Notes under the pieces: generated by a model
Told to the model about the DNA's origin: nothing
Databases searched by the model: none
The model's input: only the letters and a program-made list of their open reading frames with translations
In this document: positions 2,423-47,546 of the stretch, piece by piece
Layout: each line of letters opens with the position of its first letter
Numbering within the stretch: the first letter of the stretch is position 1
NCBI GenBank assembly: GCA_030998225.1
Contig: JAPYXD010000715.1
Coordinates: 2,914,001-2,978,000 of the forward strand
Direction: 5' to 3'
From: Diplolepis rosae
Lineage: Eukaryota; Arthropoda; Insecta; Hymenoptera; Diplolepididae
DNA length: 64,000 bases
Position numbers and translations under genes: made by a program

Positions 2423-2454
<32 letters not shown>

Positions 2455-3924: not shown

Positions 3925-3954
3925 ATTGAGAACCACTGGCATCAACTTCTAGCA

Positions 3955-4686
3955 AGCATACAACAATAAATATTTCAAAATCGACTGCAATCTCACCAAT
4001 TATAATACAATATTAACGGAAGCTCTAAAAAATCCAACATACATGATGACTGTTACTGATGCTGCTCAAAATTGAATTAACAAAAGGTTCTCAACCCTGG
4101 AGTACCAATAAATAAACAAAACTCATTAAAACTTACAGGAATTAATAACATTTTTGGTTATCCACCAGTATTTAATATTATTCCTAATGAAGTCTCAGTG
4201 GAAGAAGATGGCGTATAAGGATCAGAATTTTTCAAAAGGCTTAGAAATTCAGAACCACTGTTACCCTTTTAAATCTACCAATACATTAACTATTCCAGCT
4301 CGAACAGTGACAACATTTTATGTTCAAATAAAAAATACAGAAATAAGTGAGGGGTATATACCTCGATTACATATTCACGATGACGTTTACGTAGGAGACA
4401 CAGTTGTAAAAAATCACAAAAGAAAAGCATATTTAAAATTTGCAAACGCAACTAAAACACCAGCAACATTATTAGTTCCAATAGTGAATTTAGAAAACTG
4501 AACAATCAGAATGTAATAAATCAATTAAAAATTTTAATAATTTTAAAGAAATAAATTATATCAAATAACTTTTTAAGAACTGCCAATTCTCTGATTCACC
4601 CATGCAAATTTTATAATTTATTACTAATTTTCTACAACATTCAATTCATACTGTAGATGACTCTCCGATTTTTTCAAGACGATATA
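3955..4686 (+). pseudogene. Gypsy protease and protease-RT spacer (copy A), disrupted
   Basis: Fragments in several frames match the protease-to-RT part of the complete element. At 4160-4240 a protease C-terminal stretch matches the complete element's INILGYPTILNIIPNEV and EDGVLGSEFF, with a stop. The 4262-4501 stretch around TIPARTVTTFYVQIKNTE and EGYIPRLH matches the spacer that follows protease in the complete element (48730-48890). Near 4660 it reaches the RT start (DDSPIFSRRY) and is cut by a mariner. The catalytic DTGA is not recognisable here. Confidence 0.7.
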
Positions 4687-5236
4687 TTAGGTGCGCAACT
4701 AAGTTCCCGCTTTTTTTTATGAAAATGCAACTTTATTGTGAAAAAATGGTTACAAATGAATCGTTCAAAGTATTGCCCACCGTTAGCTACAACTTTTGCC
4801 CATCTTTCTGGTAGAGCTTGAATACAGTTACGGTAAAAGTCTTCATCATTTGAGGCTATCCTCGATTCAAGCCATTTTTCTATATCCTCATATGAGCGGA
4901 AGTGCTGATCAGCCAGACCATGTGCCATCGACTGGAACAAGTAATAATCGGACGGCGCAATATCTGGGAAATACGGCGGGTGGGGTAGAACTTCCCATTA
5001 GAGGGTTTCCAGGTAGGTTTTAATGGGTTTGGCAGCGAGTGGCCGAGCGTTGTCATGCTGTAGAATCACGCTTTCGTGCCTCTGCTCGTATTGTTTCGTA
5101 TTAGTTTTTGGCCTTCCTTCACGCGGGCGGTCGTCAACATCGAAATCACCGTCTTTGGAGCTACGGAACCAATCACGGCACGTTGTTTCAGTTAGAGCAG
5201 CATCTCCGTAAACTTTTTGGAGCTCTCGATGCGTTT
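4687..5236 (-). mobile_element. Internally deleted mariner (copy A)
   Basis: Minus strand; the left terminal sequence TAGGTGCGCAACTAAGTTCCCG is typical of mariner ends. The transposase remnant keeps an N-terminal helix-turn-helix piece, then the second catalytic Asp (QHDNARP), the third (PSDYYLF, just upstream of FQSMAHGLADQHF), and the C-terminus. The segment with the first catalytic Asp is deleted, so it is non-autonomous. It sits in the gypsy RT, and about 500 bp of RT (from the fingers to just before HIIDKNG) is missing at the insertion, so a deletion accompanied or followed it. Confidence 0.75.
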
Positions 5237-6040
5237 CATATAATTGATAAAAATGGAGTACGTCCAGATTCGAAAAAGATAATAGTTGTAAAAAGTTTCC
5301 AGTCCCAAAAATACAGAAAAATGTTTAAAAATTCTTAGGCTCAGCAGGATATTATAGACGATTTATTGGTGGATTTTCGAAAATTGCAGCTTTCGATATT
5401 TTAAAGGCACAATTATGTGAAGAACCACTTTTGCAACGACCTGATTTTCCTCATCCTTTTATACATACAACAGATACCTCAGGACTTGCAATAGGAGGTA
5501 TTTTATAACACGGAAAAATAGGTAAAGATAAGCCAATAGCATATGCTTCACGCAGTCTAAATGATACTGAGAAAAAATGTGATACATTCGCAAAAGAGGC
5601 TCTTGCTATAATATTTTGTGTAACTCAATTTAGTCCTTACTTGTATGAAAGAAATTTCACTCTAGTGACTGATCACAAATCTCTCGTTTGGTTTAAAAAC
5701 TCTAGAGACCCTTATTCACGAGTTTCACGTTGGAGACTGAAACTCGCAGAATATGATTTTGATGTAGTTTAAAAGACAGAAGAAATGAATGTAAATGCAC
5801 ATGCTCTCTCAAGAAACCCCATTAATGATAACAAAGAGAAATCAAAAAACTTACAAAATGATGACAACGCTATTTTTAGAGATTATTTTTAATTATTTTT
5901 TCAAAACTCAAGCAAGAAACAGAAAAAAGAAGAATGCCAAGGAGCCCAAAGATATTACTGAACTTGAAAGCGAAAAATTGAAAAAAAAATGATTCAACCT
6001 CAGAAGACGAAATTAACGACATTGATGTTACGGGCGAGTA
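5237..6040 (+). pseudogene. Gypsy RT C-terminus, RNase H and linker (copy A)
   Basis: Starts at HIIDKNGVRPD (RT thumb), continues through GYYRRFIGGFSKIA and an RNase H domain (TTDTSGLAIGGIL, AYASRSLNDTEK, KEALAIIF, LVTDHKSLVWF, SRWRLKLAEYDFDVV), then ALSRNPI and an acidic/basic linker ending STSEDE. All parts align in order with the complete element at 47700-46140. Stops and frame changes interrupt it. Confidence 0.8.
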
Positions 6041-7190
6041 TAGGTGGTTAAATGTTTTTTTTTGTAAGATCCTGGATTTACATTGCATAGAATTTTATTC
6101 TATACTGTAATAATTCATGACTTACAGGTGAAGCAAGACCACACTTTGTATCGTTCGTAATCTGAGCGTTTTTTGATAAACGCTGCAACTCAGCATTCCT
6201 GATCCGGCAAGCTGGTTCGAGAGCAAGGCAAGTTCTTTACTGATGTATCCAAATTTAAATAATTAAATTTCGAAATCACGTTTTGATAAATCTTCCTACG
6301 GATGCTCTACTTTTTTATGTTTTTCAGTTGCACCTCCTAGAATTAAAATTTCAAAAACACGTCATATATATATATATTTATAAACACAAAATAATATATT
6401 TATGTGTAACTCGCGTAAATAAAAATAAGTTTATGCGCGAGACCGTAAGAACTCAACGTACAATGGAGTACAAAGAGAATGAAAGAGAGCGTAAGAATGG
6501 ATGGGGAGAGAAATGCGAAAGAGAATAGAATATGGAGAAAAGAACAATATAAGAGAGAAAAGAAGTGGGCAATAGCGATGTCGCGCTCATGAAAATTGCT
6601 TGAGAAAAAGAGAATGAAAAGGAGCGTGAAAGAGAATGAAAGCTAGCAGAGAAAGCGAGAGGCAGGTTCTCTTTCATGCAGTACTGGTAGACACTGTACA
6701 CCACTATAGCTTTCTGTCGTTATTTTCTTTATTCCGTATTTCGTCCGCCCAATTAGAAAACTATTGGATTTATCACCTGCCCAAAATTATTCGTTTCTAG
6801 TAATGCTCTGATTTTTCTCTGCAGTTCAACGTGAGGTACAAGATAAACCCTACCTTCTTCATTCCCTGCACCTTTCCTTGAATACTTATGTACTGAGTCA
6901 GCTGATCTCCCACAACAAAAGCCACGTGCTTTTGTAACTAAAAGATGAAACTCATCTGAATATTTGAATTAATTATGTTGACGCTTTCAATTCATATGAT
7001 AATTATAAGCCTGGCCGAATTAAGTATATTTCGATTTATTCTGAAATATATTAGAAACTAAAATCGTTTTTACTATTTAATGACCATGCATCAAATACTA
7101 ATAACAAGTTTTTATTTATTTATTTATTTTATTTATAAATTAAAATTTGACAATTTGGAGCCTCAAACGAACGGACATTTGGATTAAATA
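6041..7190. other. Unidentified insertion within the gypsy linker (copy A)
   Basis: About 1.15 kb with no match to the complete element lies between the STSEDE linker and the Glu-rich/integrase part. It contains a purine-rich, GAGA-like tract at 6450-6690 and a TA/ATT-rich tail at 7110-7140. No ORF of note and no clear terminal repeats. Copy B equivalent: 12203-13352. It could be an anonymous element or an unusual segment of this lineage. Confidence 0.4.
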
Positions 7191-7240
7191 TTTTGATTTA
7201 TATTAAAATCAAATCTTCGTACGTAAAAATTGGAATCACG

Positions 7241-7850
7241 CACGAAGGAAATTATGAAGAAAATATGGAACAGGATTTTGAAGATAATTTTGAAGAAAAT
7301 TTTGAAGAGAAGTTTGAAGAAAACCATGAAGAGAACTTGGAACAAAATGTTGAAGCGTCTTACTTTGAAAAAAACTTTGAAACTAAATCGAAGATATCAA
7401 ATAAACTTTGAAAAAGTCGATAATGATCATAATGATGATAATCGTCCATCCCTAGAGCCCTCTGCACCCAACTCAGATCTATTAGGTAAGTTTTAATGAA
7501 TAAAAATATAGTTGATTGTCGCGATCAATTAGCTATGAGAAAGTATAATTATGCATATTTTGTTGCGACAAATGGAACTCCTCGCGAGAAAGGATCAAAA
7601 ACTTTAGAAAAACGTGAAACTTTAAGCAAATTTAAATAATTACAAAAAAGAATAGCAAAAGAGACTAAAAAAGGAAACTACTACCATTTTGCACTTGCAG
7701 TTGAAGAAGAAACTAAGGACAATTCATCCGAAACTTTAAATAATATGAAATCATCAATTTACCCATTACATGAATTATTTAAGAAATTTAAATTACGATC
7801 AATTAGTATAGTATTAGCAACGAGTTCATTTAATTGAAGAAGCTCATGAT
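7241..7850 (+). pseudogene. Glu-rich repeat and gypsy integrase N-terminal region (copy A)
   Basis: A run of TTTGAAGA-like units encodes repeats such as NFEENFEEKFEENHEENLEQ. It is followed by sequence matching the pre-integrase region of the complete element (CRDQL.MRK, then YFVATNGTPREKGSK, LEKRETL, KGNYYHFAL, LNNMK at 7500-7770). The frame is broken repeatedly and the zinc-binding and catalytic domains are absent. Copy B equivalent 13403-14012 has lost one base near 13537, which opens the frame across the repeat. Confidence 0.7.
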
Positions 7851-8160
7851 AGCTCTCTGGCCATATTTAATTCAAATTGGAATTTTTAAACAAGATGACT
7901 ATAATATTCCCACATGGAGCAGAAAGCTAAACAGTCCAGATACAATAAAAGATATTTTTGGAAAATAAAAACAAGACGACCAAATGCATACAAAAACTTA
8001 ATTTTCAGTTTACGGCTATCAGATCACATTGTCATAGCCGACATGTTGTATATAATAAACTAAGTTCACAAAATACAAAAAATAAATCAATAGCTTCAAA
8101 AAAAATATAACGATGATGAAATTTTTTCTATTTTTATATTACAAACAAAAAAGAGGCTGC
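7851..8160 (+). other. Low-complexity remnant between integrase and glycoprotein (copy A)
   Basis: AT-rich, with no convincing frame. Position suggests degraded integrase 3' part and env leader. Copy B equivalent 14013-14322. Confidence 0.35.
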
Positions 8161-8170
8161 TAATCGAAAC

Positions 8171-8188
8171 CTTCTTTTTCCAGAGATG
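8171..8188 (+). promoter_or_regulatory. Candidate env splice acceptor (copy A)
   Basis: Polypyrimidine tract CCTTCTTTTTCCAG ends at 8183, with an ATG three bases on at 8186. Env of insect errantiviruses is made from a spliced RNA, so an acceptor here fits. Copy B equivalent: 14333-14350. No donor was identified. Confidence 0.4.
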
Positions 8189-8321
8189 GGTAGACAACAG
8201 TCTACGTCATCATAGGATTTGACAGCGGTTCAAATCAATCAAATATTACATCATCCTTACTAGAGGTAGAAGAATGTGATCTACCTCGATCTCAAGTACG
8301 CGTTGAAAGAAATTATATACA
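8189..8321 (+). pseudogene. Chuvirus-like glycoprotein N-terminus, cut by the duplication (copy A)
   Basis: An open frame with short motifs VIIGFDSGSNQSNIT and VEECDLPRSQ, then RNYIQL, matches the mature N-terminus of the class of insect glycoproteins related to chuvirus G that serve as env in some LTR elements (family recognised from motif pattern; not searched). It stops at the duplication junction; copy B continues the same frame. Confidence 0.6.
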
Positions 8322-8583
8322 ACTTAGCACATTCCAATGAGGTTTCCTCGTTCACACATAATTAAGGGTTTGCAATGCTTTTCTATCTATAATTTCACTA
8401 TTTTCTCTCTTCCTATTACAATTTTACTTCCGGACATTCTATTTTCGTTAAAATCAATACTTTTTAAAACCTGTTGCTTATGCACGTATTATCGTGAAAT
8501 CTTTTTATTATTTTTGTATAGCTTAATATTATAAATAAATAAATATTGATGGTCACAGGACGCACTTTTTCTAGAAATTTGTA

Positions 8584-8586
<3 letters not shown>

Positions 8587-8617
<31 letters not shown>

Positions 8618-9801
8618 AGGAAGGGAGAAATGCTTTATGCACCGTCAAGGGGACTCCGCGCCCCCCTGGTGTGTGGGACTCTGCTGCTCGCGCAGCCCTA
8701 CCCATTAAAACTCCCTCTCTGTCTCAAGGCCGTGGAATCCCACCCCGGAACCGCCGTTAGGCATTACTTCAGGGTGGGGGCCATCTTAAGGCGATGTTAA
8801 CCTCTCATCCGTGCTTCTTCGTCTCATTTCCTGGACTTGCACCTCCAGATCTCTTCTCCATGGCGGCCCTCCTAAGGCTTCCTGTTGGGGGCTGCCTCCC
8901 GGAAGGCCGCACAGCGCATAGTCCCCGGTATATGATCATTCCGGGGCTTTTCTTCCATTGCCGCACAGAGGTAGCACCGCGGTTGCCTTGTGCAGGACCC
9001 CGCGGTATGACCCTCCTCGCCGCATCTCCAGCAGCACCTACTTCGGTCTGGTCCACGACAGTCCACTGCCATGTGGCCGAAGCCAAGGCAGCGATAGATA
9101 GATAGATATAGATAGATACTCATAAGGTATTCGAAGGAGTCGAGGTAGCATACGGTATCGTCGATGTCGTACCGCAGCGCCCCGAGCCCCTTCTTCATCT
9201 CCTGTATGCCGTCCCTGATAGGAAGGTGCATGTCCTTCTTCGACCTGGAGAAGTTCTCCATCTTCTCCAGGGCCGATTCCACCTTCGAGAGGATCTCCAG
9301 CTGCTGCTCGTTCCGCTGATGTAGCCAGTTCCGGTACTGCCGTACCTGAGACTTATCCGTCTCGAACGGATCCGGCGTTTCCTCCGTCACGTCTAACTCC
9401 CCTCCAAATAACTCCTCACATACACTTTTATTTAAATTTTTAAACTCCATTTTTATTCCCACGATTAGCTAGGGAAGTATTCGGTCCGCCCCTGCAGAGC
9501 CCCGCATGCAGGGGTAAGGCCTCAATACTCTAGGAGGTGGCCTGATTTCCTAGAGTCACCGTGTGAGACACCACTCCCTGGTGCCATGCAGCCCTCGGCA
9601 CGGTAGTTAACACCTTGGCTTGGGGGTTATTCCTTCGGGACCATCCCTGGAACATTGTCCGCGACTGCTTATTTAGTTTTGTATCCGTATTCAGCAGTAA
9701 CCCTCGGTACAGGGCCCCTCTATTCGCAACCTGAGGACGCGCCCGGTGGCCTGTTCTAGGGCCTCCTGATCGGTTTCCGAAAAAACCAATGCAGGACCGG
9801 G
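8587..9801 (-). mobile_element. Non-autonomous R1-clade element (copy B), with ORF1 at 8872-9462
   Basis: Duplicate of 2426-3639, with the same 14-bp target duplication at 8573-8586 and 9802-9815. The ORF1 remnant of 196 codons differs from copy A at three residues near the N-terminal domain border (KDMHLPIRDG here, KNMHLPIKDV in copy A). The poly(A) tract is slightly longer than in copy A. Confidence 0.85.
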
Positions 9802-9807
9802 AGAAAT

Positions 9808-10086
9808 TTGTACAATAATAACAATGTTAATAATAATAATAGACAATTGAATCCAGGACAGTATGAAAACTTTAACTCAGGGAACTTTCAAAAACGAAAT
9901 AAACCATACAAAAATAGATTAAAAACTGAACAAAATTCAACTTTCACGGAAATAATTCGCAATAACTGCAAAAAACCTGGTAATTTAGTACGAGACTGCA
10001 GGATACCACGAAATAAACAATTAAAAACACCTCATCAGGAAAACTTCAAAGCTCTTCCCAGCACGGGTGCACTGAGGAAAGCATAA
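9808..10086 (+). pseudogene. Gypsy Gag C-terminus (copy B)
   Basis: Same 92-residue remnant as at 3646-3924, with the same damaged zinc knuckle, following the 3' target duplication of the copy-B R1-type insertion. Confidence 0.8.
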
Positions 10087-10116
10087 ATTGAGAACCACTG
10101 GCATCAACTTCTAGCA

Positions 10117-10847
10117 AGCATACAACAATAAATATTTCAAAATCGACTGCAATCTCACCAATTATAATACAATATTAACGGAAGCTCTAAAAAATCCAAC
10201 ATACATGATGACTGTTACTGATGCTGCTCAAAATTGAATTAACAAAAGGTTCTCAACCCTGGAGTACCAATAAATAAACAAAACTCATTAAAACTTACAG
10301 GAATTAATAACATTTTTGGTTATCCACCAGTATTTAATATTATTCCTAATGAAGTCTCAGTGGAAGAAGATGGCGTATAAGGATCAGAATTTTTCAAAAG
10401 GCTTAGAAATTCAGAACCACTGTTACCCTTTTAAATCTACCAATACATTAACTATTCCAGCTCGAACAGTGACAACATTTTATGTTCAAATAAAAAATAC
10501 AGAAATAAGTGAGGGGTATATACCTCGATTACATATTCACGATGACGTTTACGTAGGAGACACAGTTGTAAAAAATCACAAAAGAAAAGCATATTTAAAA
10601 TTTGCAAACGCAACTAAAACACCAGCAACATTATTAGTTCCAATAGTGAATTTAGAAAACTGAACAATCAGAATGTAATAAATCAATTAAAAATTTTAAT
10701 AATTTTAAAGAAACAAATTATATCAAATAACTTTTTAAGAACTGCCAATTCTCTGATTCACCCATGCAAATTTTATAATTTATTACTAATTTTCTACAAC
10801 ATTCAATTCATACTGTAGATGACTCTCCGATTTTTTCAAGACGATAT
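10117..10847 (+). pseudogene. Gypsy protease/spacer remnant (copy B)
   Basis: Duplicate of 3955-4686, including the spacer TIPARTVTTFYVQIK. It differs by single bases, for example near 10713. Confidence 0.7.
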
Positions 10848-11398
10848 ATTAGGTGCGCAACTAAGTTCCCGCTTTTTTTTATGAAAATGCAACTTTATTG
10901 TGAAAAAATGGTTACAAATGAATCGTTCAAAGTATTGCCCACCGTTAGCTACAACTTTTGCCCATCTTTCTGGTAGAGCTTGAATACAGTTACGGTAAAA
11001 GTCTTCATCATTTGAGGCTATCCTCGATTCAAGCCATTTTTCTATATCCTCATATGAGCGGAAGTGCTGATCAGCCAGACCATGTGCCATCGACTGGAAC
11101 AAGTAATAATCGGACGGCGCAATATCTGGGAAATACGGCGGGTGGGGTAGAACTTCCCATTAGAGGGTTTCCAGGTAGGTTTTAATGGGTTTGGCAGCGA
11201 GTGGCCGAGCGTTGTCATGCTGTAGAATCACGCTTTCGTGCCTCTGCTCGTATTGTTTCGTATTAGTTTTTGGCCTTCCTTCACGCGGGCGGTCGTCAAC
11301 ATCGAAATCACCGTCTTTGGAGCTACGGAACCAATCACGGCACGTTGTTTCAGTTAGAGCAGCATCTCCGTAAACTTTTTGGAGCTCTCGATGCGTTT
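10848..11398 (-). mobile_element. Internally deleted mariner (copy B)
   Basis: Duplicate of 4687-5236: same terminal sequence, same internal deletion removing the first catalytic Asp, same position in RT. Confidence 0.75.
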
Positions 11399-12202
11399 CA
11401 TATAATTGATAAAAATGGAGTACGTCCAGATTCGAAAAAGATAATAGTTGTAAAAAGTTTCCAGTCCCAAAAATACAGAAAAATGTTTAAAAATTCTTAG
11501 GCTCAGCAGGATATTATAGACGATTTATTGGTGGATTTTCGAAAATTGCAGCTTTCGATATTTTAAAGGCACAATTATGTGAAGAACCACTTTTGCAACG
11601 ACCTGATTTTCCTCATCCTTTTATACATACAACAGATACCTCAGGACTTGCAATAGGAGGTATTTTATAACACGGAAAAATAGGTAAAGATAAGCCAATA
11701 GCATATGCTTCACGCAGTCTAAATGATACTGAGAAAAAATGTGATACATTCGCAAAAGAGGCTCTTGCTATAATATTTTGTGTAACTCAATTTAGTCCTT
11801 ACTTGTATGAAAGAAATTTCACTCTAGTGACTGATCACAAATCTCTCGTTTGGTTTAAAAACTCTAGAGACCCTTATTCACGAGTTTCACGTTGGAGACT
11901 GAAACTCGCAGAATATGATTTTGATGTAGTTTAAAAGACAGAAGAAATGAATGTAAATGCACATGCTCTCTCAAGAAACCCCATTAATGATAACAAAGAG
12001 AAATCAAAAAACTTACAAAATGATGACAACGCTATTTTTAGAGATTATTTTTAATTATTTTTTCAAAACTCAAGCAAGAAACAGAAAAAAGAAGAATGCC
12101 AAGGAGCCCAAAGATATTACTGAACTTGAAAGCGAAAAATTGAAAAAAAAATGATTCAACCTCAGAAGACGAAATTAACGACATTGATGTTACGGGCGAG
12201 TA
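11399..12202 (+). pseudogene. Gypsy RT C-terminus, RNase H and linker (copy B)
   Basis: Duplicate of 5237-6040, with the same RNase H motif series and the same in-frame stops, so the decay preceded duplication. Confidence 0.8.
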
Positions 12203-13402
12203 TAGGTGGTTAAATGTTTTTTTTTGTAAGATCCTGGATTTACATTGCATAGAATTTTATTCTATACTGTAATAATTCATGACTTACAGGTGAAGCAAGA
12301 CCACACTTTGTATCGTTCGTAATCTGAGCGTTTTTTGATAAACGCTGCAACTCAGCATTCCTGATCCGGCAAGCTGGTTCGAGAGCAAGGCAAGTTCTTT
12401 ACTGATGTATCCAAATTTAAATAATTAAATTTCGAAATCACGTTTTGATAAATCTTCCTACGGATGCTCTACTTTTTTATGTTTTTCAGTTGCAACTCCT
12501 AGATTTAAAATTTCAAAAATTCATCATATATATATATATATTTATAAACACAAAATAATATATTTATGTGTAACTCGCGTAAATAAAAATAAGTTTATGC
12601 GCGAGACCGTAAGAACTCAACGTACAATGGAGTACAAAGAGAATGAAAGAGAGCGTAAGAATGGATGGGGAGAGAAATGCGAAAGAGAATAGAATATGGA
12701 GAAAAGAACAATATAAGAGAGAAAAGAAGTGGGCAATAGCGATGTCGCGCTCATGAAACTTGCTTGAGAAAAGAGAATGAAAAGGAGCGTGAAAGAGAAT
12801 GAAAGCTAGCAGAGAAAGCGAGAGGCAGGTTCTCTTTCATGCAGTACTGGTAGACACTGTACACCACTATAGCTTTCTGTCGTTATTTTCTTTATTCCGT
12901 ATTTCGTCCGCCCAATTAGAAAACTATTGGATTTATCACCTGCCCAAAATTATTCGTTTCTAGTAATGCTCTGATTTTTCTCTGCAGTTCAACGTGAGGT
13001 ACAAGATAAACCCTACCTTCTTCATTCCCTGCACCTTTCCTTGAATACTTATGTACTGAGTCAGCTGATCTCCCACAACAAAAGCCACGTGCTTTTGTAA
13101 CTAAAAGATGAAACTCATCTGAATATTTGAATTAATTATGTTGACGCTTTCAATTCATATGATAATTATAAGCCTGGCCGAATTAAGTATATTTCGATTT
13201 ATTCTGAAATATATTAGAAACTAAAATCGTTTTTACTATTTAATGACCATGCATCAAATACTAATAACAAGTTTTTATTTATTTATTTATTTTATTTATA
13301 AATTAAAATTTGACAATTTGGAGCCTCAAACGAACGGACATTTGGATTAAATATTTTGATTTATATTAAAATCAAATCTTCGTACGTAAAAATTGGAATC
13401 AC
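12203..13402. other. Unidentified insertion in the linker (copy B)
   Basis: Duplicate of 6041-7190 with its purine-rich tract at about 12620-12850. The copies differ most near 12495-12545, where the TA dinucleotide tract has changed length. Confidence 0.4.
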
Positions 13403-14012
13403 GCACGAAGGAAATTATGAAGAAAATATGGAACAGGATTTTGAAGATAATTTTGAAGAAAATTTTGAAGAGAAGTTTGAAGAAAACCATGAAGAGAACT
13501 TGGAACAAAATGTTGAAGCGTCTTACTTTGAAAAAACTTTGAAACTAAATCGAAGATATCAAATAAACTTTGAAAAAGTCGATAATGATCATAATGATGA
13601 TAATCGTCCATCCCTAGAGCCCTCTGCACCCAACTCAGATCTATTAGGTAAGTTTTAATGAATAAAAATATAGTTGATTGTCGCGATCAATTAGCTATGA
13701 GAAAGTATAATTATGCATATTTTGTTGCGACAAATGGAACTCCTCGCGAGAAAGGATCAAAAACTTTAGAAAAACGTGAAACTTTAAGCAAATTTAAATA
13801 ATTACAAAAAAGAATAGCAAAAGAGACTAAAAAAGGAAACTACTACCATTTTGCACTTGCAGTTGAAGAAGAAACTAAGGACAATTCATCCGAAACTTTA
13901 AATAATATGAAATCATCAATTTACCCATTACATGAATTATTTAAGAAATTTAAATTACGATCAATTAGTATAGTATTAGCAACGAGTTCATTTAATTGAA
14001 GAAGCTCATGAT
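13403..14012 (+). pseudogene. Glu-rich repeat and integrase N-terminal region (copy B)
   Basis: Duplicate of 7241-7850. Here a one-base loss lets the Glu-rich repeat read through into FEKVDNDHNDDNRPSLEPSA, the linker just before integrase. In copy A the frames are separate. Confidence 0.7.
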
Positions 14013-14350
14013 AGCTCTCTGGCCATATTTAATTCAAATTGGAATTTTTAAACAAGATGACTATAATATTCCCACATGGAGCAGAAAGCTAAACAGTCCA
14101 GATACAATAAAAGATATTTTTGGAAAATAAAAACAAGACGACCAAATGCATACAAAAACTTAATTTTCAGTTTACGGCTATCAGATCACATTGTCATAGC
14201 CGACATGTTGTATATAATAAACTAAGTTCACAAAATACAAAAAATAAATCAATAGCTTCAAAAAAAATATAACGATGATGAAATTTTTTCTATTTTTATA
14301 TTACAAACAAAAAAGAGGCTGCTAATCGAAACCTTCTTTTTCCAGAGATG

Positions 14351-14610
14351 GGTAGACAACAGTCTACGTCATCATAGGATTTGACAGCGGTTCAAATCAA
14401 TCAAATATTACATCATCCTTACTAGAGGTAGAAGAATGTGATCTACCTCGATCTCAAGTACGCGTTGAAAGAAATTATATACAACTTCTAAAATTGACTG
14501 GATTTTCAAATACAAAAGTAATACAATGCAAAGTAGAAATTCTATGTGCTATTTCTCATTGTGGTGTGCACTCACAAATTTTCATAGTTGCAAATGGCCA
14601 TGGTGAATAT
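14351..14610 (+). pseudogene. Chuvirus-like glycoprotein, 5' segment (copy B, continuous with 3' half)
   Basis: The same frame as 8189-8321 continues beyond the duplication edge: LLKLTGFSNTKVIQCKVEI, then ISHCGVHSQIFIVANG. The cysteine pattern (ECD, QCKVEI, HCG.HS) is characteristic of chuvirus-related G proteins and of LTR-element envelopes derived from them. Such a protein would mediate receptor binding and membrane fusion if intact. The frame is broken at 14611 by a transposon at a TA. Further segments lie at 18979-19500 and 20402-20686. Confidence 0.65.
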
Positions 14611-15410
14611 ACAGGGTGTCTAAAAAGTCCCGGGACGGTTGGATATTTCCTCAGGTAAAATATTTTTCAAAAAAGTGAAGGACATTCCTGAAGTAAATTT
14701 CAACGAGGAATTCAATGGTGAGATTAATTTTGACCTTGAAGTTGACCTTCATGGCTTTTTCAAGGTCAACTTTGTTTTTTAAATGGAACCCCCCTTTTTT
14801 TACATCTGCAATCGATAGAGCGGAAAATTCTGCGTTCAAGCACGTACCCAAGTCATAGGTCAATTGTAACATTCCAGGTCAATTAGAGGTTATTTGAAAT
14901 AAACAAAGTTTTCCAAGAGGTCAGTGCAATTCCTGAAGTATTTTTCAACGGGGAATTCAACCCTGACCTTCATTTTGAAATTGAAGTTGACCTTCATGGC
15001 TTTTTCAAGGTCAAATTTGTTTTTTTAAATTGGAAACCCCCTTTTTTTATATCTGCAATCAATAGAGCGAAAAATACTACGTTCAAGTACGTACCCAAGT
15101 CATAGGTCTATTGTAACGTTCAAGGTCAATTAGAGGTTATTTGAAATTAAAAAAGTTCCAAAGAGGTCAGTGTAATTCCTGAAGTAAATTTCAACGAGAA
15201 ATTCATTGGTGAGCTCTGTATTGATCGTGGTTACAGCGTTTTGAATGTTGTAAAATCATATGTATAGGAAATTTTTCATTAAAAGTTCCAGGAGTTCTGG
15301 TGAGAGTTCTGTTCCTCCCCAAAGAGTTATATCGAAAAGTCCTATACCATTTTTTGATACCTAAGTCAATACCTGAGGCGATATCATAAGTCCTATACCG
15401 TTTTTCTATC

Positions 15411-15757
15411 TTATGATCAAGTTCGTTTGCTTTTTAATCGCACTTTTCGTAATGAAGAAGGGTTAAATCCTGTCTCGAAATCAACAATTGAAAGAACTGT
15501 AAGGCGCTTTATGAATCATGGATCTATCAAGGACCTTCAGAGAACTGGTCGGCCAAAATCTGCAGGATCAGAGTAGATGCAGATGGACATATCCCAAGCA
15601 TTTGTTGAAAACCCACACCTTAGTTTACGTTGAGCTAGTGATGAGCGTGACGTTGCTCCTGAGACAGTGCGAAATATTTTAAGAAGCATTAATTTCCATC
15701 CCTACAAAGTTCAACTGGCTAAACCTAAACGTAAACTGCTTGGAAAAAACCTTGAAA
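15411..15757 (+). pseudogene. IS630/mariner-type transposase, N-terminal DNA-binding fragment
   Basis: Reads a homeodomain-like helix-turn-helix region: LNPVSKSTIERTVRRFMNHG, then SIKDLQRTGRPKSA, a stop, then NPHLSLR and VRNILRSINFHPYKVQLAKP. This is the bipartite DNA-binding domain of the family. The whole catalytic DDE half is absent, so the element is non-autonomous. Two stops interrupt it. Confidence 0.7.
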
Positions 15758-16577
15758 AAACCTTGAAGATCATCACCAAGATCAATACAGAGCTCATCAA
15801 TGAATTTCTCGTTGAAATTTACTTCAGGAACTGCACTAACCTCTTGGAAAACTTTGTTAATTTCAAATAACCTGTAACGTGGTAGATTACGTTAAATTTT
15901 TTTACCTCGACCAGCAACGACAGGATCGAGCCCAAGCCACCTTTTTCAATTAAAACTCAACACTGTCAGGGACAGTCTGAGAGCTGCTCATAAAATTCTT
16001 TTATTTTTGATTGTTTTTCAGGCCGTTTTCTTTTTTTAATTGTTTCATTTAAAAACACCAGCTTAAAGGCGCCGCCAAGGAGATCGCTGTGTTACCATCG
16101 CACGCAGAGGGGTTCACAGGCAAGCCACAGAGGGCATCACCCAGCAGGCATGGCATCTGAAACGACTACGTGCTGCAGCCCATGGTTTCCAACACCGTCG
16201 CACCATTATTATTATAATTAATATAGAAAGGGCATGACGAGTTGGAACAATTATAAATTACATTATGTATTGTATATTAGCGTTGTCTATTTGTAACTGC
16301 TGTGTTGTGCAGTACAAACTCTACGTAGTTTAAACGCACCCCTCTACGTTTTAAGCCAATGGGGCAAGCTGACCGATAGACGCTTCACCTCTTTGGTTAC
16401 CTGGCGCCGTCGTCCTCACAAGACGAGTCGCTCGCGCAAGCCTGAGCTTCATGCGCGTGCGCTAGCCTTTCCAGCTGATGTAATAAAACTGCGCGACATC
16501 CTTGGCGCGCAGCTTCATTCTGTCGTTGTCGCACGAGCGTTAAATAACCTCCCAGAGATCAAAGATTTTATTTTCTG

Positions 16578-16640
16578 ATGGACGCCACCACAGAGTTCGA
16601 TTTGGAGGAACTAAGGCGCGAGATAGCGGCCAGATCACCG
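16578..16640 (+). other. Short ORF ending at a splice-donor-like site inside the solo LTR
   Basis: ATG at 16578 opens MDATTEFDLEELRREIAARSP and runs directly into G|GTAAGT at 16641. A matching polypyrimidine acceptor TATTTATTTCCAG ends at 18293, beyond the inserted mariner. It may be a leader exon of the LTR element or a captured first exon. The protein is not recognised. Confidence 0.3.
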
Positions 16641-17006
16641 GTAAGTCTTTGAGACTATATTCCGGGCCGTTAATAATAGCTCAGCAATCATAGTTTTGCC
16701 ACAAAATTTTTATTCTCGCAAACCAAGTGGCTCTCAGGCTCTCTCAGAGCTCTGCCTTTTTCTTAGGCGCTAATTTTGTTGAATTTATATCGAGCCAGGG
16801 CCTCGCCCATCAATAAATAAATTGTAGCTTTAATTAACCTACAAGTCGCTTAATTTATTTTTGTTTTGTTTGCACAAGAGCTCCTATGTTTAGGTTAAAA
16901 TTCCTTCCTTAACCTCAAAACCTTACCTGATCCGGACTCCCGAATCCATAATTACCCTAGCCGGAACCCCTGCTTGGCTTCGCTTTTTCTTGTTGCATGC
17001 TAAGTA

Positions 17007-18280
17007 CAGGGTGGGCCATATAAAATTTTTAATTTAAAAAGTCAATAAATAAAAACGGCTTGATATTTTTCAAAGGTCTAACATTTATTTAAAAGGTTGT
17101 TTTATGAAATTTATTTGAGGAAAACAATTTCGGACAAATGACCACCACGGCTGAGTTTACAGTAGCTTAACCGATCCACCCAATTTTGGAGTACTTTCTC
17201 GATGGTTTCAGGCCTTATGGCAGCAACAGCAGCTTGAATCTCGTACTTTAGATCTTGAATTGTTTCTGGATGGTTGGCGTAACATTTATCTTTAACAGCT
17301 CCCCACAGAAAATAGTCCAACGGACTTAAATCGCAGCTTCTGGGAGGCCAATTCACATCACCTCTTTTGCTGATTATGTGATTTTCGAAGATAGGGCGTA
17401 AAAGATTGAGTGTAGCGTTTGCTGTATGGCACGTAGCGCCGTCCTGCTGAAACCAAATGTTGTCCAAGTCTTCCTCTTCAATTTGCTTGAAGAAAAATTT
17501 GGATAAAATTGCGCGATATCGTTCACCATTGATGGTTAAGGCGGTTCCTTCTTCATTTTTGAAGAAAAATGGGCCGATGATTCCACCAGTGCTGGGTGCA
17601 TTGGCTTCTCGACGATTATGTGCGGGTTTTCTGTGCCCCAAATACGACAATTCTGCTTGTTAACGTAACCACCGAGGTGGAAATGAGCCTCGTCCGAAAA
17701 GATGATTTTTCGGTAAAATTGACCATCCTCGGTCAAACGATCTTCCGCCCAATCTGCGAACTGTAGACGGCTCGGATGGTGAATTGGCTTCAGCTGCTGC
17801 ACCAATTGAACGTTATATGGCTTCATAGCGAGGTTTTTTGCAAAATTCGTCGCAAAGTTGTTCGTGGAATGTTAAAATCTTGCGATCGACGGCGAGTTGA
17901 GGTGGATGGATTCTCACTAACACATTCAGCCACAGTCGCAATATTTTCGGGTGAACGCGCGGGAAATGAACGTTGACGTTTTGGTTTATCCACCAACGAG
18001 CCAGTTTCACACACACGCTTGACAAATTGTTGCACAAATTGAACTGATGGCACTTTTTGTCTGTCCATTTTTTTTGCCAAATTTCTCACAGTTTGGGTTG
18101 AAGACTCACCACTTTGGAAAAAAGTTTTCAATATTTCCCAGTTTTATTCTAGCGAATAGCGACCCATTTCGTAAATTTTAGACTTTTTACTGAATATCTG
18201 TCACTTTCCGAATGGTATTTGACGTTTTCAATGTCGAAATACAGATACTTCAAATTTAAAACGCTAGATTTCCCACCCTG
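17007..18280 (-). mobile_element. DD41D (rosa-type) mariner element
   Basis: Ends share TACAGGGTGGG, with TA duplicated at 17005-17006 and 18281-18282. Size is 1.27 kb, normal for a full-length mariner. One transposase lies on the minus strand. The element is complete in extent but its gene is frameshifted. It is nested in the solo LTR. Confidence 0.85.
17111..18131 (-). pseudogene. DD41D mariner transposase, frameshifted
   Basis: Three overlapping frames (18131-17823, 17826-17536, 17650-17111) together cover a full-length transposase. N-terminal helix-turn-helix ends at TTLRRILQKTSL. Catalytic residues: first Asp in KIIFSDEAHFHLGGYVN, second in WFQQDGATCHTA, third in CDLSPLDYFLWG. There are 41 residues between second and third Asp, the spacing of the rosa/DD41D group. 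The triad is preserved; two frameshifts, near 17824 and 17640, inactivate it. Confidence 0.85.
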
Positions 18281-18978
18281 TATTTATTTCCAGGGTCTCT
18301 ACATTTATAAATATGGCGTCGAGAGACGCCAGGCGCTCATTTGAGAAGCCGCCTAAGTAACGCCGGTGACGCCGAGGGTAATCCCGAGTCCTCGGGTCCG
18401 CTTTGATAAGTCTTATCTTTTTTGACGTTTCAGCGGAGGTCACCCGTTATAAACCTTTAACTGACCTGGAACGTTACAATTGACCTATGAATTGGGTACG
18501 TACTTGAACGTGGTATTTTCGCTCTATCTATTGCAGATGTGAAAAAGGGGGTTTCCATTTAAAAAAAAACAAATTTGACCTTCAAAAAGCTATGAAGGTC
18601 AACTTCAATCTCAAAATGAAGGTCACCGTTGAATTCCCCGTTGATAAATATTTCAGGAATTGCACCGACCTCTTGGAGAACTTTGTTTACTTCAAATAAC
18701 CTCTAATTGACCTTGAACGTTACAATTGACCTATGACTTGGGTACGTATGTAAACGTAGAATTTTCCGCTCTATCGATTGCAGATGTAAAAAAGGGGGTT
18801 TCCATTTAAAAAACAAAGTTGACCTTGACAAAGCCATGAAGGTCAACTTCTAGGTTAAAATGAAGGTCACTATTGAATTCCTCGTTGAAATTTACTTCAG
18901 GAATGACCTTCAGTTTTTTGAAAAATATTTTACCTGAGGAAATATCCAACCGTCTCGGGACTTTTTAGACACCCTGTA

Positions 18979-19500
18979 TACAAGATGTTACACGAGATCA
19001 ATGTCACAAATGCACACATTAGGAACACTTTTAGTAGCCCCTTCCCCTCAAATATCAAAATTAAAAGTAAATGAAACTTAATTCCACAACGTTACTTTAG
19101 CAGGTTCTGTAAAACCTAACGGAGACTATACTGGCACACAATTTTCTAATCCATACGGAACATGGAATAATTTTATAGTCCAAGCAATATTCAAAATAAA
19201 TTCACAAGAACATTACGCGACTATTCATTTAAATTCGAATAAAATTCAATTAGGATCTGGAATAATATGCACATTTTCTGACACATACTGTACAGACGTA
19301 GAATATGGACAAACATTCTGGAACACATTACCTAACGACGTATGTAATTTTAATAAATATAAAGTTATCTATGGAGGAGCAGCAAATAAAACATGATAGC
19401 ACGACAGACAATTCTGAAACTCTTTGGTCATTACCTACTGAAAATATAACCTTTTTACTGGCTGAAAAAACAAGAAAACCAGTTTAAAGTTACGTTTTAA
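18979..19500 (+). pseudogene. Chuvirus-like glycoprotein, middle segment
   Basis: Resumes the glycoprotein after the TA of the transposon: VTRDQC, a frame change, then MHTLGTLLVA, KVNETTFHNVTLAGSV, YGTWNNFIVQAIFKIN, CTFSDTYCTDVEYGQTFW and LPNDVCNF. Conserved Cys and the DVE.G.TFW block fit chuvirus-type G ectodomains. A TGA at 19394 and later breaks interrupt it. It ends where a second mariner inserts at 19501. Confidence 0.65.
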
Positions 19501-20401: not shown

Positions 20402-20686
20402 TAAACCGAACATCCAAAATTATTGATCTTCGAAAACAGACCTGGAAATTCATTCCTAGAAAACAAACACTTGGCAGTTCAAAATATGGACATTTTAACA
20501 GAATCCGGTATCCAAACAAATTGCAATTATTTTCTTCCGGCAGTGTACCTTTTTGGTGAAACCTGGTACAAATTACTTGCAAATCCTGTTGAGTCTATAA
20601 CATCAACTATAGTTAAACCTTTTACAAGAGCAACCTGGAAATACACAAGTCCTTCATCCTTAGCGACCTTCTGGACCTACTGCTGA
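20402..20686 (+). pseudogene. Chuvirus-like glycoprotein, C-terminal segment
   Basis: Contains FLENKHLAVQNMDI and, downstream, ETWYKLLANPVESI followed by TWKYTSPSSLAT, blocks that occur late in the ectodomain of chuvirus-type G. No transmembrane anchor could be identified downstream, and the frame shifts several times to about 20870. Assignment rests on block order (after 18979-19500) and spacing. Confidence 0.55.
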
Positions 20687-20863
20687 GTTCCATAAAGTAC
20701 TGCTAACAGCTTCAGGGCCAAAAAACCCGAAAGAGACACCCAAAAGTTCAACACATAACGCAAATAACAATTCAGGTAAAGATCACAATAGTACAAACAC
20801 TATTCTTTATCCTCACTCTGAACTAAAAGAAGAACATAGTAGAACATACTATCCTATACAAAT

Positions 20864-20880
20864 CTAACATCTTCAGAATG
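20864..20880 (+). promoter_or_regulatory. Candidate splice acceptor before the dsRBD-like ORF
   Basis: TCTAACATCTTCAG ends at 20876 or 20877, one base before the ATG at 20878. This repeats the arrangement found before the glycoprotein ATG (8186) and the second Env (23230). No donor was identified. Confidence 0.4.
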
Positions 20881-21009
20881 TCGCATGTTCCTTTTACGAA
20901 TTTATTGAACAAACTCATTCAACAAAAAGGAGATCTACCCTTCAATTACGGAATACTCATTGAACAAACCATTAATAACGAGTATTTATTTCACATCAAT
21001 TTGCAATGA

Positions 21010-22232
21010 TGGATCTATAACTTAATTCGTGTGGTTTTTTTTCAAAATTTGAACGTTTATTTAAGAAAAACATGTACAATAGTATTATTAAAAGCATTGC
21101 CCAACTGAAGCTATGAATTTTTCCCATCTTTCTAGCAATTTGTGGATTCCATCACAAAAAAACTGCGCCGGCTTGGCAGCCAAGAATGAATCAAGCCAAT
21201 TTTTTATACCCTGTTCTGATGTGAACCATATTCCAGTGAGGGCCTTCTGCATCGACCGGAACAAATGGTAGTCAGAAGGGGCAAGGTCTGGGCTATAAAG
21301 TGGGTGGGGTAAAACTTCCCATTCACTGTTTTCCAAATAGTTCTTAACTGGAATAGCAACATGGGGCCGAGCGTTGGCATGATGGAAAATTATTTCCTCG
21401 TGTCTGATCGCATATTCCGGGCGTTTTTCGGCTATTGCTCTTTTTAAACGGATTGATTGTGTTCGGTAGCGTTCTCCATTGATAGTTTCACCCGGTTTTG
21501 GCAGCTCATAATACAGCACATCCTTCTGATCCCACCAAATACAGAGCATTACCTTCGCGCCACGGATATTCGGCTTTGCCGTTGATTTGGCTCGTTGGCC
21601 GGGTTTCACATATCATTTCTTGCGCTTGGGGTTGTCGTCATGGATCCATTTTTCATCACCAGTAACAATCCGATGCAAAAATGACTTCTTTTTGTGCCGT
21701 TCCAGCAGCTTTTCGGACATGCGAAACCGCCTTTCAACGTCTCTCGGCTTGAGTTCATGTGGAACCCAATTTCCTCACTTTTGAATGTATCCGACTGCTT
21801 TTAAACGTTTTGAAATGGCTGCTCGAGTGACTCCCAAAGATCCTGCGAGCTCTTCTTGTGTTTGGCAACAATCTTCATCGAGTAATGCTTCCAGTTCTTC
21901 ATCTTCAAACTTTTTTGGCTGCCCAGGACGTTCTTCGTCTTCCAAGCCAAAATCACCACTTTTAAATCGTGGAAACCACTTGTGGCACGTTCGCTCAGCT
22001 AGAGCATGTTCACCATAAACTTCCACCAAAATACGATGACACTTTTGCGGGCACAAAGTTCGACATATTTGAGTGAAAAAAAATTATTGTTGTTTTCGCT
22101 TCAAATGAATGACATATACTGAAAAATACGCACAATGACAGTAGCTTTCCAACGAATATTCGGAATATTGGAACGATGCAATAATAATCAAGTTACGCCA
22201 TCTCTTAGCAAACCGCACGAATTAAGTTATAG
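21010..22232 (-). mobile_element. Full-length mariner inserted in the dsRBD-like gene
   Basis: Inverted ends ATAACTTAATTCGTG (left, from about 21012) and CACGAATTAAGTTAT (right); flanking TGGATCTA and its complement make the apparent repeat longer, so the exact edges are uncertain by several bases. Size is about 1.22 kb, normal for mariner, with a single minus-strand gene. Confidence 0.8.
21088..22056 (-). pseudogene. Mariner transposase with catalytic Asp replaced by Ala
   Basis: Two nearly contiguous frames (22056-21775, 21609-21088) joined by an open stretch after a stop. N-terminal helix-turn-helix (CQTQEELAGSLGVTRAAISK), then the first catalytic Asp in VTGDEKWIH. The second catalytic site reads FHHANARPHVA where the family has HDNARPH, so Asp is Ala. 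The third, PDLAPSDYHLFRSM, is intact. Stops after YIQK and near 21615 also block translation. Confidence 0.85.
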
Positions 22233-23199
22233 ATCCAATATAAAAATTACATAATTATGAGTAGTGGCGTAGAAAAATATAATGTAAAACAAAAGGTAGC
22301 ACGGAAATTATATCAAATCTGAATTAATGAATCGGAAAAAACCAATCAAAATGGCCAACCAAATTTTATTAGTAAAAATTGCAAAAAATTAAACGAAATT
22401 TGAACTCAAAACAAATATGTATATCCAAAATATACGGTATTGCGAATAAAATCTTTATTAGAAAATTCAACATACATAGCAATTTGTTTCATTAAGGATA
22501 TTAAAAAGATAGGAATAGCAAACTCGATAGAAACAGCAAAGGATTTCGCTGCCATAAAAATTATTAATTCTCTTTCGAATAAAAACGAGAAATGTCAACT
22601 AAGTTTGATAAACTCACTCGAAAATTTGCATGTCGCAATTCAAGAATCATTTATAAACGGTCCAAAAGCTTCAATAAGTAACCAAATAACAAAACCTAGT
22701 ACTTCAAATAATATCCGTGTTAAAAATACAAAATTATATAAAATGAAACAAATTAATATTTTTACTACATCTTTCTCTACATAAGCTTTGAAAAATGTTT
22801 TAAATTCGGATATAGACCTCTCAACCAGTACAATAAATTCTAATATAAATATTCCATACCGATTCAGGATATCAACTTCAATGGAGCATTACTACGGCGA
22901 GCCTAACCACGTACTAAGTTACCAAAAAAGAGATTTTTAAACCACGTAGAAAATTTGAGGAATTTTGCAATAAAATCTGGATTGTCATTACCACAATACA
23001 GAGTCTATCCTTATCCGATTTCGAAAACAAAATTATTTTTTCTTGCACAAATTAATATAAACTATCATTTTGTTATACAAGCCGGCCCACCAAGAAACTC
23101 CTCAACATTTAGTAGACTATTTTACTCTTCTCCCCAAAAAACTTCTGGACCTAAATCCAACCACATGTAAGCATCCTATTTTATCGAATATTATTTCTA

Positions 23200-23232
23200 C
23201 TTTTCTTTTTCAGCCTTCCGAGAAGCCTAATG
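23200..23232 (+). promoter_or_regulatory. Candidate splice acceptor before the second Env
   Basis: A strong polypyrimidine tract TTCTACTTTTCTTTTTCAG ends at 23213, followed by CCTTCCGAGAAGCCTA and ATG at 23230. It is the best acceptor of the three in this provirus. Confidence 0.45.
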
Positions 23233-24240
23233 AATCTCCTTAACCGACTAGCATTCGGACTGTCTTTGATTTTAATTTCACTCTTTTATTCCAAAGAAGA
23301 GAAATTCTTTATAGACTCACAATTTTCTCACTCTTCAGGCATTTATTTTAAACCAATTTTGAAAGCCCGTCTTTTTTCTGAAAAATATCATTTTATATCT
23401 TACATCAATGTCTTTCAACCAGACATACTTAAATACGGAATAATAGATTTTTCACATAAATTATATGAATATTGCATGCTTTGAAATATTGCCAATGATT
23501 GTAATTTATACGATCATCAAACACAGCTTGAATTTATACAACGAATCAACTATTTTCTTGAAGAAATATTATTTATATCTAGACAAGCTCGTAATATCAC
23601 TAATATTTTTAAAATTTATCAAATCAAATCTAACAAAGAAGACTCATACCCTTCAACATCCCTTTTTTCTATGTTCGCTCCCTTTGCTAAAATACAATAC
23701 TTTTTATTCGATAAGCTATTCAAATAACCAATCGTACGTTACAACAAATGAAAATTTTCTCAATGCATGTTATCAAAATGGATTCCAAACATTTTGTCAC
23801 CCACCAAGATCTATATCTAACACCAGCAACACCCTCTTTGCGAAACATCAATATTTCTAGGTTGTCAACCATACAAATGTAAAATCTTCATCACTTTTAG
23901 CGAATATCCTTTTCTAACACCATTGCAATTTTATCATGGATGGCTATACTCAACAATTTTCACCCAAAAAATTTGCTCATCATGTCTAAAAAACTCTAAG
24001 ACCTTAGTCACACTCCAAGGAATAGGAATTTTGCAAATAAAGTCAGGTTGCATTCTTCAAAATTAACTTGATCTAAATTCATGTGAACAGTCTTTATATT
24101 CCGAACTTTCACACCACTTTTTTTGCTAAAATTTAATCCTACTTCTTCTAATTCACTTATTATAAAACTAGTCCTATTTTTGTCCTTATCAGCTTGCGCG
24201 TCACTTGAAACACCTAATTCTTCAACTGAACTATTTTAAT
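23230..24240 (+). pseudogene. Errantivirus-type Env remnant
   Basis: ATG at 23230 opens a hydrophobic signal-like N-terminus (LAFGLSLILISLFY), then HSSGIYFKPILKARLFSEKY and FISYINV, a pattern like the start of insect errantivirus Env surface subunits, then Cys-containing segments with stops. A later frame (23860-24060) reads LVTLQGIGILQIKSGC, a block seen in the C-terminal part of such Env proteins. Frames change several times. It is distinct in sequence from the glycoprotein at 14351-20686. Assignment is by pattern only. Confidence 0.4.
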
Positions 24241-24652: not shown

Positions 24653-25540
24653 AACCGGGTCCGCTAGGGTACAGACACAAAAATTTTAAAATCAGTGATA
24701 CCACCGACAGAGAAATTCTAAAAAAATGGATCAAGGCATGTGAAAAGTGTTTTCAAAGAGGGAATTTGGCTCCAAATTCCCGCAACCCTCTATGAAATGA
24801 AAAATATAAAAATGACCCTTAACCATAGGCGCAGACTAGGTCTGGGAAAAATTTAGGGGAGTTGCTAAGAGAGAGAAAATTCCTGATAAAAAGGGATTCC
24901 TAGCGTGAAATACGTGTAAAGTGCAGTTCACCAATTGTTAAGACCCGAGATTCATAAATTTACCGTGGACCTTTTTTCAATCTTTGAAAGGATCTTAGAC
25001 TCAGTGTCCAAGATGTATAATTTCTGTGTCTTCGTCACTCCAATGTAATACGCATTCTGTCCTTGTCATTTTGATTTTCTCGATCTTGTGTTCAATTTTT
25101 ACATTACATTTATCTGTATCGTAATACACAACATTACGCTAATCTTAACTGTAGCGTAAAAACGAGTTTACGCGCCGGAGGAACATAAAATAGAATTTGT
25201 GCCAATGCACACAATTCGGGTGATTACGAGACTCGCTTAAAATGCTCGCAGGACTGATCGCGCCTCGGCTTTGTCTCGGCTTCGTTTTGGCTTTGCCGCA
25301 GCTACGCCTCGACTACGCCTTGGCTTTGTTCTCCTGCGAACAGTGTCGCTCGTCGCGTAATAACCCTCATTATGCGCCTACGCACATAATATACTATTAT
25401 ATTACCTTACGATTTAAAATCAATTCAATTTGCCTTACTTTATTAAACATTGTGTTCTTTACTGACTTATCCTCATCCCTAAGTGAGGATCATTTGATCC
25501 TAACTTGTTACTTTTGATCAATGGTAATTCCATTTACAAA
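24653..25540. other. Unassigned sequence with degenerate CGGCTTTG repeats
   Basis: No gene recognised. At 25255-25340, imperfect GC-rich units (CGGCTTTG, CGGCTTCG, CTACGCCT) repeat. Their open frame is a by-product of the repetition. Confidence 0.35.
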
Positions 25541-25544: not shown

Positions 25545-26340
25545 TAAATTATTATTCTCTCAAACTATTTGAAAAAGAAACTTATTAACTTTTAAAAAAT
25601 TGGAGAGTAAAACATTTCTTGCAAAAATACAACAAAAACAGATATTTCCATAAATAATACAAATCTGCCAAGAATATATGGTCTTTGATGTAACGTCTTT
25701 ATTTACAAATGTAACAAGCGATCTAGTTAAAAATAGCATACTGAAAAGATGGAATCTTATAAAAAGTTCTACAAAATTGTCTCTACAAATTTCTAAAAAG
25801 GAATTGAATTTCTTATGGATAACACTTTTTTCAGTTTAATAATGAATATTATTATCAAGTTTTTGGTCCTCCAATGGGGTATCACATGTCCTCTATGTTA
25901 GCAGATTTAGTTTCACCAGATCTTGAAGAAGAAATATTTTTAAAATTAAGCTTTAAAGTACACTCGTATTACAGATATGTAATTAGGAAAAGATCCACTA
26001 GGAAGATTTGAAACTTCGAATGTAGTTTATAAGATTCCATGCTTGGATTGCTCAAAAACTTATGTAGATAAAAAAAGGACACAAAAAAACATGAAATTAA
26101 ATGAAAAATATAATTTGGTTACAAAACATAGAATAAATAATAAAAATGATACAGGTATTCAACATTATTTTGATTGAAATAATATTAAAATTTTACATAA
26201 AGAGTCCAATTATTTCAAAAGAATAATTGCAGAAATGTTTTACATAAAAAAAGAAAGAGAAAACGGTATCAATGTTATTGCCGACTTAAAAGATTATAAT
26301 TCTTTTTATGATATTATTTTAGATCAACTTATATAAATAT
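25545..26340 (+). pseudogene. Penelope-like element: RT fragment and GIY-YIG endonuclease
   Basis: VFDVTSLFTNVTSDLV (25682-25730) matches the DVTSLFTNVP block of Penelope-like RT, followed by a frame change and YQVFGPPMGYHMSSMLADLV (25855-25915), corresponding to the PMGSPLSP block. SYYRYV (25965) is cut before the catalytic DD. Next, VVYKIPCLDCSKTYVDKK (26025-26075) is the GIY-YIG endonuclease start with the usual Cys pair. The C-terminus ends near DLKDYNSFYDIILDQ (26330). RT upstream of this is missing. Stops and frameshifts abound. Confidence 0.7.
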
Positions 26341-44475: not shown

Positions 44476-44478
44476 TAA

Positions 44479-47543: not shown

Positions 47544-47546
47544 TTA

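Follow-up and report, generated by a model that had tools for sequence, protein, structure and literature searches.

Among the described long terminal repeat (LTR) elements, the nearest known one to the element reported here is, as far as the accessible text on it goes, Anakin of the BEL-Pao group (PMC7642597), in which a glycoprotein of the chuvirus type (PF24664) is likewise encoded downstream of pol within an LTR element. The element in question is a Ty3/gypsy-type endogenous retrovirus, a decayed copy of which, as judged from its sequence, occupies part of a stretch of 64,000 nucleotides from the hymenopteran Diplolepis rosae (contig JAPYXD010000715.1, positions 2,914,001 to 2,978,000; this whole stretch is called the window, and its own numbering is used throughout). 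Unlike Anakin, so far as that source describes it, the element belongs to gypsy rather than Pao and holds an extra envelope gene of the baculovirus F type (Env), together with two open reading frames (ORFs A and B) predicted to bind double-stranded RNA (dsRNA).

Errantivirus-like Ty3/gypsy elements with an F-type Env share with this element the LTRs, gag, protease, reverse transcriptase (RT), RNase H, integrase and the downstream F-type Env, but the element described here has a second, unrelated glycoprotein and the two putative dsRNA-binding ORFs between pol and Env. The additional ORFs of plant LTR retrotransposons likewise lie as added genes between pol and the 3' LTR, but they differ in coming from another host kingdom, and the main text of the review describing them does not use the terms "RNA-binding" or "RNA binding" (PMC7264820). 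A survey from 2023 records, in its accessible parts, abundant Gypsy fragments beside chuvirus-type glycoproteins, chiefly in Hymenoptera and Coleoptera, as well as one such glycoprotein within a complete but unclassified element of Bemisia tabaci, and it states that there is "no clear evidence" for glycoprotein capture by Gypsy or Copia (PMC10084718). No gypsy element with dsRNA-binding genes, or with two envelopes, was found in the literature searched, which comprised titles and abstract openings of capped lists, with few subscription papers and no bioRxiv entries; the element is regarded as a gypsy element with env whose set of accessory genes is new. To our knowledge, no insect LTR element has been described with a gene answering the small interfering RNA (siRNA) or PIWI-interacting RNA (piRNA) pathways.

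Gene order and constraint across the family

The initial annotation had placed a gene with three dsRNA-binding-like blocks in an LTR provirus, in line with gag, pol and a glycoprotein gene and between two envelope-type genes, and its surroundings were read in copies throughout the genome (757,744,533 bases searched). The DNA of domain 2 gave 627 first-look candidates, and all 40 of those scored, window included, match at 86-100%; the stretch of domain 3 gave 554 candidates, and again 40/40 scored ones match, at 84-100%. All 20 plus-strand copies among the 40 scored, excluding the window, were read over 9.9 kb, and 3 of the 19 minus-strand copies over 3.4 kb. ORF A is present in each of the 20 plus-strand copies and is always preceded on the same strand by a glycoprotein piece, which lies at most 40 nt away in 18 of them (deletions in L011 and L022). 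ORF B is found downstream of ORF A in 19/20 copies (exception L021) and an F-type Env piece further downstream in 19/20 (exception L027), while gypsy pol pieces lie upstream on the same strand in 17/20 (not in L009, L011 and L021, and in L027 by weak pieces only); as judged by tblastn, these pieces, of which each of the 17 copies has at least one, are ordered as protease, RT, RNase H and integrase. Within the stretches read of the minus-strand copies, A is followed by B in 3/3, with the glycoprotein upstream and an Env piece downstream in 2/3 each.

The identities of these genes are clear in the better preserved copies: the glycoprotein of L023 matches PF24664 at 2.5e-246 across positions 6-649 of the 653 of the profile, Env matches Baculo_F (PF12259) at 3.2e-22 in L023, 7e-21 in L012 and 8.8e-08 in L016, and the integrase of L025 matches H2C2 (7.7e-21) and rve (8.1e-13); no Pfam match was obtained for the Env piece of L014 or the gag piece of L012. 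A pattern search found ORF A open from ATG to stop in 8/20 copies and ORF B in 5/20. The C95 copy is bounded by a pair of LTRs of 629 bp (L029 1436-2064 and L031 179-807), whose identity of 99.5% indicates that the family moved recently; in its flanks, five of six bases agree by eye as a possible target-site duplication, which is suggestive only. The gene order of the family, shown in many copies, is thus gag, pol, chuvirus-type glycoprotein, ORF A, ORF B, baculovirus-F-type Env and LTR. The blocks therefore belong to a resident gene set of an LTR element and not to a processed pseudogene dropped into a single provirus, and the proposed alignment with pol and position between two envelopes hold in the related copies; in the window, most of the integrase is absent and the second Env is undetectable in the fragments.

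Selection was assessed from the ratio of nonsynonymous to synonymous differences (pN/pS) in pooled pairs from the 20 copies, compared with a null in which the same base changes were randomly redistributed over the same ORF (30 redistributions each); note that the pairs are not independent, owing to their shared ancestry, and that dead copies raise the ratios. ORF A shows a pN/pS of 0.41 (20 copies, 190 pairs; null 0.77-0.83) and ORF B one of 0.55 (18 copies, 153 pairs; null 0.81-0.88), as compared with 0.34 for integrase (null 0.79-0.93), 0.37 for RT (null 0.64-1.16, from only 4 copies and 6 pairs), 0.58 for the glycoprotein (null 0.90-0.96) and 0.54 for Env (null 0.83-0.91). ORFs A and B are thus under purifying selection and kept as proteins, A nearly as strictly as pol and B like the envelope genes.

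dsRNA-binding domains in ORFs A and B

All three blocks claimed at 20878-23170 are present in the window (Table 1), but their assignment as dsRNA-binding domains (dsRBDs) does not follow from the window copy itself. No dsrm match (PF00035, curated cut-off 23 bits) was found for four window pieces at E-values up to 1 or for domains 2 and 3 at E-values up to 10, and the sole PDB matches of window domain 2 are two unrelated EscU sequences. A dsrm match of domain 2 had been set beforehand as the test of the idea; on the window alone it failed, and this outcome was overridden by the relatives. Eleven of the 20 scanned database relatives (P-numbered proteins, which may stem from this species or a close one) score above the cut-off, at 23.7-50.1 bits, with the strongest E-values in P0028 (4.1e-13), P0021 (2.6e-11) and P0002 (5.7e-11); the other nine are P0001, which is the window's own (15.0 bits), two proteins at 14.4 bits each and six that are broken or lack most of ORF A. 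The open ORF A of the genomic copy L023 matches dsrm at 1.8e-10 (41.7 bits, two stretches). ORF A accordingly carries genuine dsRBDs. Scored by itself, dsRBD1 reaches 20.7 and 21.8 bits, below the cut-off, and dsRBD3, which mostly lacks the usual lysines, stays below it throughout, at 14.4-22.6 bits where matched (20.2 bits for ORF B of the copy) and without any dsrm match in P0112. The identity claimed for the blocks is confirmed through the relatives, with dsRBD3 staying under the cut-off.

The notion of one gene with three domains had to be given up, because in the relatives the domains are split over two ORFs in different frames, with dsRBD1 and dsRBD2 in A and dsRBD3 plus a CCHC motif in B, so that a single three-domain chain was not encountered. 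The CCHC pattern occurs in 7/120 database proteins, namely those extending that far. In P0102, the motif covers residues 136-149 and is followed at residues 164-170 by a PPPVPPR stretch in the C-terminus of ORF B, both being absent from the window copy; neither of the two matched Pfam when taken singly. The PPPVPPR stretch presumably resembles an SH3 ligand. The AlphaFold models of P0002 and P0102 were too poor for use, and scans of viral and genome contig collections found no relatives.

The likeness to Dicer partners noticed at the outset was recovered, although weakly: for the proteins of both ORFs, the PDB ranks Loquacious, R2D2 and TARBP2 highest (E 0.007-0.02), followed by RNase III, whereas profile A1 gave no match against PDB. 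These proteins have dsrm domains in common with the element, but the domains of the latter are distributed over two ORFs, are encoded by a mobile element and show just 19-32% identity to Dicer-partner domains in full-length alignments. The element domains are identical to a Loqs-like domain of the host in merely 16/62, 18/62 and 12/63 positions, while the host domain shares 43/58 with that of the fly. It is plausible that A and B derive from a captured Loquacious/R2D2/TARBP2-like host protein, and any such capture would be old, given the low identity. The host genome also contains an R2D2-like dsRBD ORF of 241 amino acids (L033; G000:C252, about 9402060) and, on another contig, a Loqs-like exon (L032).

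Sequences resembling splice acceptors were noted by eye before two of the genes: CATCTTCAG precedes the ATG of A in the window and in 16/18 copies listed, and TTTTTCAG that of Env in the window and in 15/16 copies listed, omitting 2 (A) and 4 (Env) of the 20 copies, in which the region is missing or unaligned. A similar acceptor before the glycoprotein of the window was dropped, as the related copies differ in sequence there. ORF B starts 37 nt beyond the stop of A in the +1 frame in 8/8 copies checked; a programmed A-to-B frameshift was considered, and the fused A-B frames in some database proteins resemble indels. Upstream of the ATG of ORF B its frame continues open and overlaps the end of ORF A by up to about 100 nt (L023 6612-6750; likewise in L010, L013, L025 and L026).

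The window copy and its neighbours

The copy in the window is dead, as evident from a mariner-like insert, stops, frame changes and a deletion (Table 1). Its gag is reduced to the C-terminus and its integrase is mostly gone, so that the continuity from pol to the glycoprotein rests on the other copies. The domain 2 motifs YVYPKYTV, ICFIKDIKK and TAKDFAAIKIINSL are found within the open piece 22404-22781, while ORF B has undergone a frame change and lost about 90 residues, which span the last part of dsRBD3 as well as the CCHC motif. The Env fragments of the window have no Pfam match by themselves, and in none of eight comparisons with the other env of the window was their score reached by less than 19% of the shuffles; they are assigned to the F type because the Env region of the related copies is Baculo_F. 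The LTR relics place the 3' end of this provirus.

Table 1. Remains of the provirus and its inserts in the window.
Feature	Position	Strand	Evidence
Decayed Ty3/gypsy remains: C-terminus of gag, protease, partial RT and RNase H, pre-integrase segment, with mariner-like insert	9946..13972	+	tblastn using the gypsy element of the window; self-BLAST
Chuvirus-type glycoprotein, N-terminal piece	14356..14610	+	PF24664 1.8e-20, profile 19-102
Foldback DNA transposon within glycoprotein gene	14608..18980		inverted arms; flanking TA at either end; contains pieces of a mariner-like transposase
Glycoprotein, second piece	19082..19393	+	PF24664 6.3e-29, profile 139-240
Glycoprotein, C-terminal pieces, not all in one frame	20405..20849	+	PF24664 2.9e-16; P0091 match 20667-20849
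ORF A start (MSHVPF...) and first half of dsRBD1	20878..21006	+	77% identical to P0002 residues 1-43
Mariner-like insert in dsRBD1 (approximate ends)	21007..22238	-	ORFs; inverted ends that match by eye
ORF A, next part: remaining half of dsRBD1, dsRBD2 (about 22383-22574), linker; in-frame stops	22239..22793	+	72% identity across 22233-22793 with P0002 residues 42-229
ORF A C-terminus, other frame	22784..22840	+	84% identical to P0002 residues 227-245
ORF B start	22881..22943	+	P0102 residues 1-21
ORF B: dsRBD3 as far as the third strand, followed by loss of about 270 bases	22934..23089	+	83% identical to P0102 residues 26-77
ORF B C-terminus beyond deletion	23087..23167	+	81% identical to P0102 residues 168-194
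Broken baculovirus-F-type envelope gene	23155..24063	+	pieces match Env region of related copies
3' LTR relic	24803..25506	+	66-88% identity with parts of the C95 LTR (629 bp)

According to self-BLAST, the decayed pol region has a tandem copy of 99.7% identity at 3784-7810. The repeated units, at 2161-8325 and 8322-14487, form a 6.16-kb tandem duplication with 99.7% identity, which covers the pol remains together with the beginning of the glycoprotein and represents either a recent duplication or an assembly artefact. The arms of the foldback transposon are repeated at about 88-94% identity, and its transposase pieces lie at 17111-18143. Short ORFs at 25654-26177 resemble by eye pieces of a Penelope-type retroelement and of GIY-YIG.

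A related and fairly intact gypsy element lies at 42152-53421 on the minus strand, with an LTR pair of 942 bp (99.3%) and, between RNase H and integrase, an extended charged region that contains GRPRK motifs. Its RT and integrase are mostly 62-98% identical to pieces of the copies, with 43% in the divergent L027, and no extra gene (env or dsRNA-binding) was detected with the queries used. Another errantivirus-like element is located at 58315-62386 (minus strand), with Env pieces scoring 20.5 and 17.2 bits against a Baculo_F cut-off of 24.1.

Possible roles of A and B

Insect retroelements are held down by the siRNA and piRNA pathways; in flies, siRNAs restrain retroelements, and gypsy yields siRNAs rather than piRNAs in ovarian somatic cells, according to the accessible text of PMC4246233. 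Insect viruses counter silencing by dsRNA-sequestering proteins such as B2 of Flock House virus (FHV), and in what could be consulted of PMC6563508 dsRNA binding by virus-encoded proteins is a known block of Dicer-2. Unlike suppressors of the FHV B2 type, as they appear there, the case considered here concerns an endogenous LTR element and three dsRBDs, with a putative function. Further dsRBD examples among viral suppressors of RNA interference (RNAi) are the 1A protein of Drosophila C virus and E3L of poxviruses.

A and B may be read as suppressors because their dsRBDs resemble those of the partners of Dicer-2, are under selection and reside in an element facing Dicer-2. The resulting picture of a gypsy-type provirus with host-derived A and B acting as suppressors of the siRNA pathway is given an even chance, and RNAi suppression, although the likeliest role of the two proteins, has roughly balanced prospects. 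A and B would have descended from a Loquacious/R2D2/TARBP2-like host protein and be produced from spliced or polycistronic element RNA; A would bind the dsRNA formed by sense and antisense element transcripts and so keep it from Dicer-2, and B, with most of the usual RNA-contacting lysines lost, might bind a protein instead, perhaps Dicer-2 or host dsRNA-binding proteins. The more specific proposal of an endogenous retrovirus with two unrelated envelopes and a split mimic of a Dicer partner, selected to blunt the siRNA response, stands slightly short of even. The scarcity of the lysines in dsRBD3 weighs against suppression. A nucleic-acid-handling role is also conceivable.

One such role would be service to the element RNA by packaging, dimerisation or chaperoning, with dsRBD and CCHC motif acting as an extra nucleocapsid. 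The CCHC pattern of ORF B and its constraint, which resembles that of the structural glycoprotein and Env genes, would fit this idea, but it appears unlikely, since dsRBDs are not usual in nucleocapsids, the top PDB matches are Dicer partners and not capsid proteins, and the gag of the related gypsy element in the window already matches a zinc finger (PF16588, 33.4 bits; CCHC 18.5 bits, below its cut-off). Still less probable is a function of A in RNA export or localisation, similar to Staufen or Rev, by which unspliced RNA would be taken out or to the site of particle assembly: the acceptor-like motifs before A (17/19 sequences listed) and Env (16/17 listed) suggest that unspliced RNA needs handling, and domain 2 of the window has a weak Staufen_C match (0.13), but no Staufen was among the PDB matches at E-values up to 1 in one search and up to 10 in the others. 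The broken state of the window copy and its splitting by inserts might by themselves suggest a host dsRNA-binding pseudogene or retrogene landed by chance in one provirus; this is highly improbable and refuted by the other copies, as the glycoprotein precedes A in all 20 copies read, both ORFs are constrained and the identity to the Loqs-like host domain is low. A chance resemblance without any dsRBD, as might be supposed from the window pieces without dsrm match and the unusable AlphaFold models, deserves hardly any credit, being refuted by the dsrm matches in the relatives and in the copy.

With respect to the family, the chuvirus-type glycoprotein is here a gene resident in a gypsy element, whereas the 2023 survey, in the parts accessible, had an association without clear evidence of capture, and the presence of a second envelope of a different class beside it raises the question why one element would keep both. 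A family of many copies with constrained dsRNA-binding genes would, moreover, render the arms race over retroelement silencing testable.
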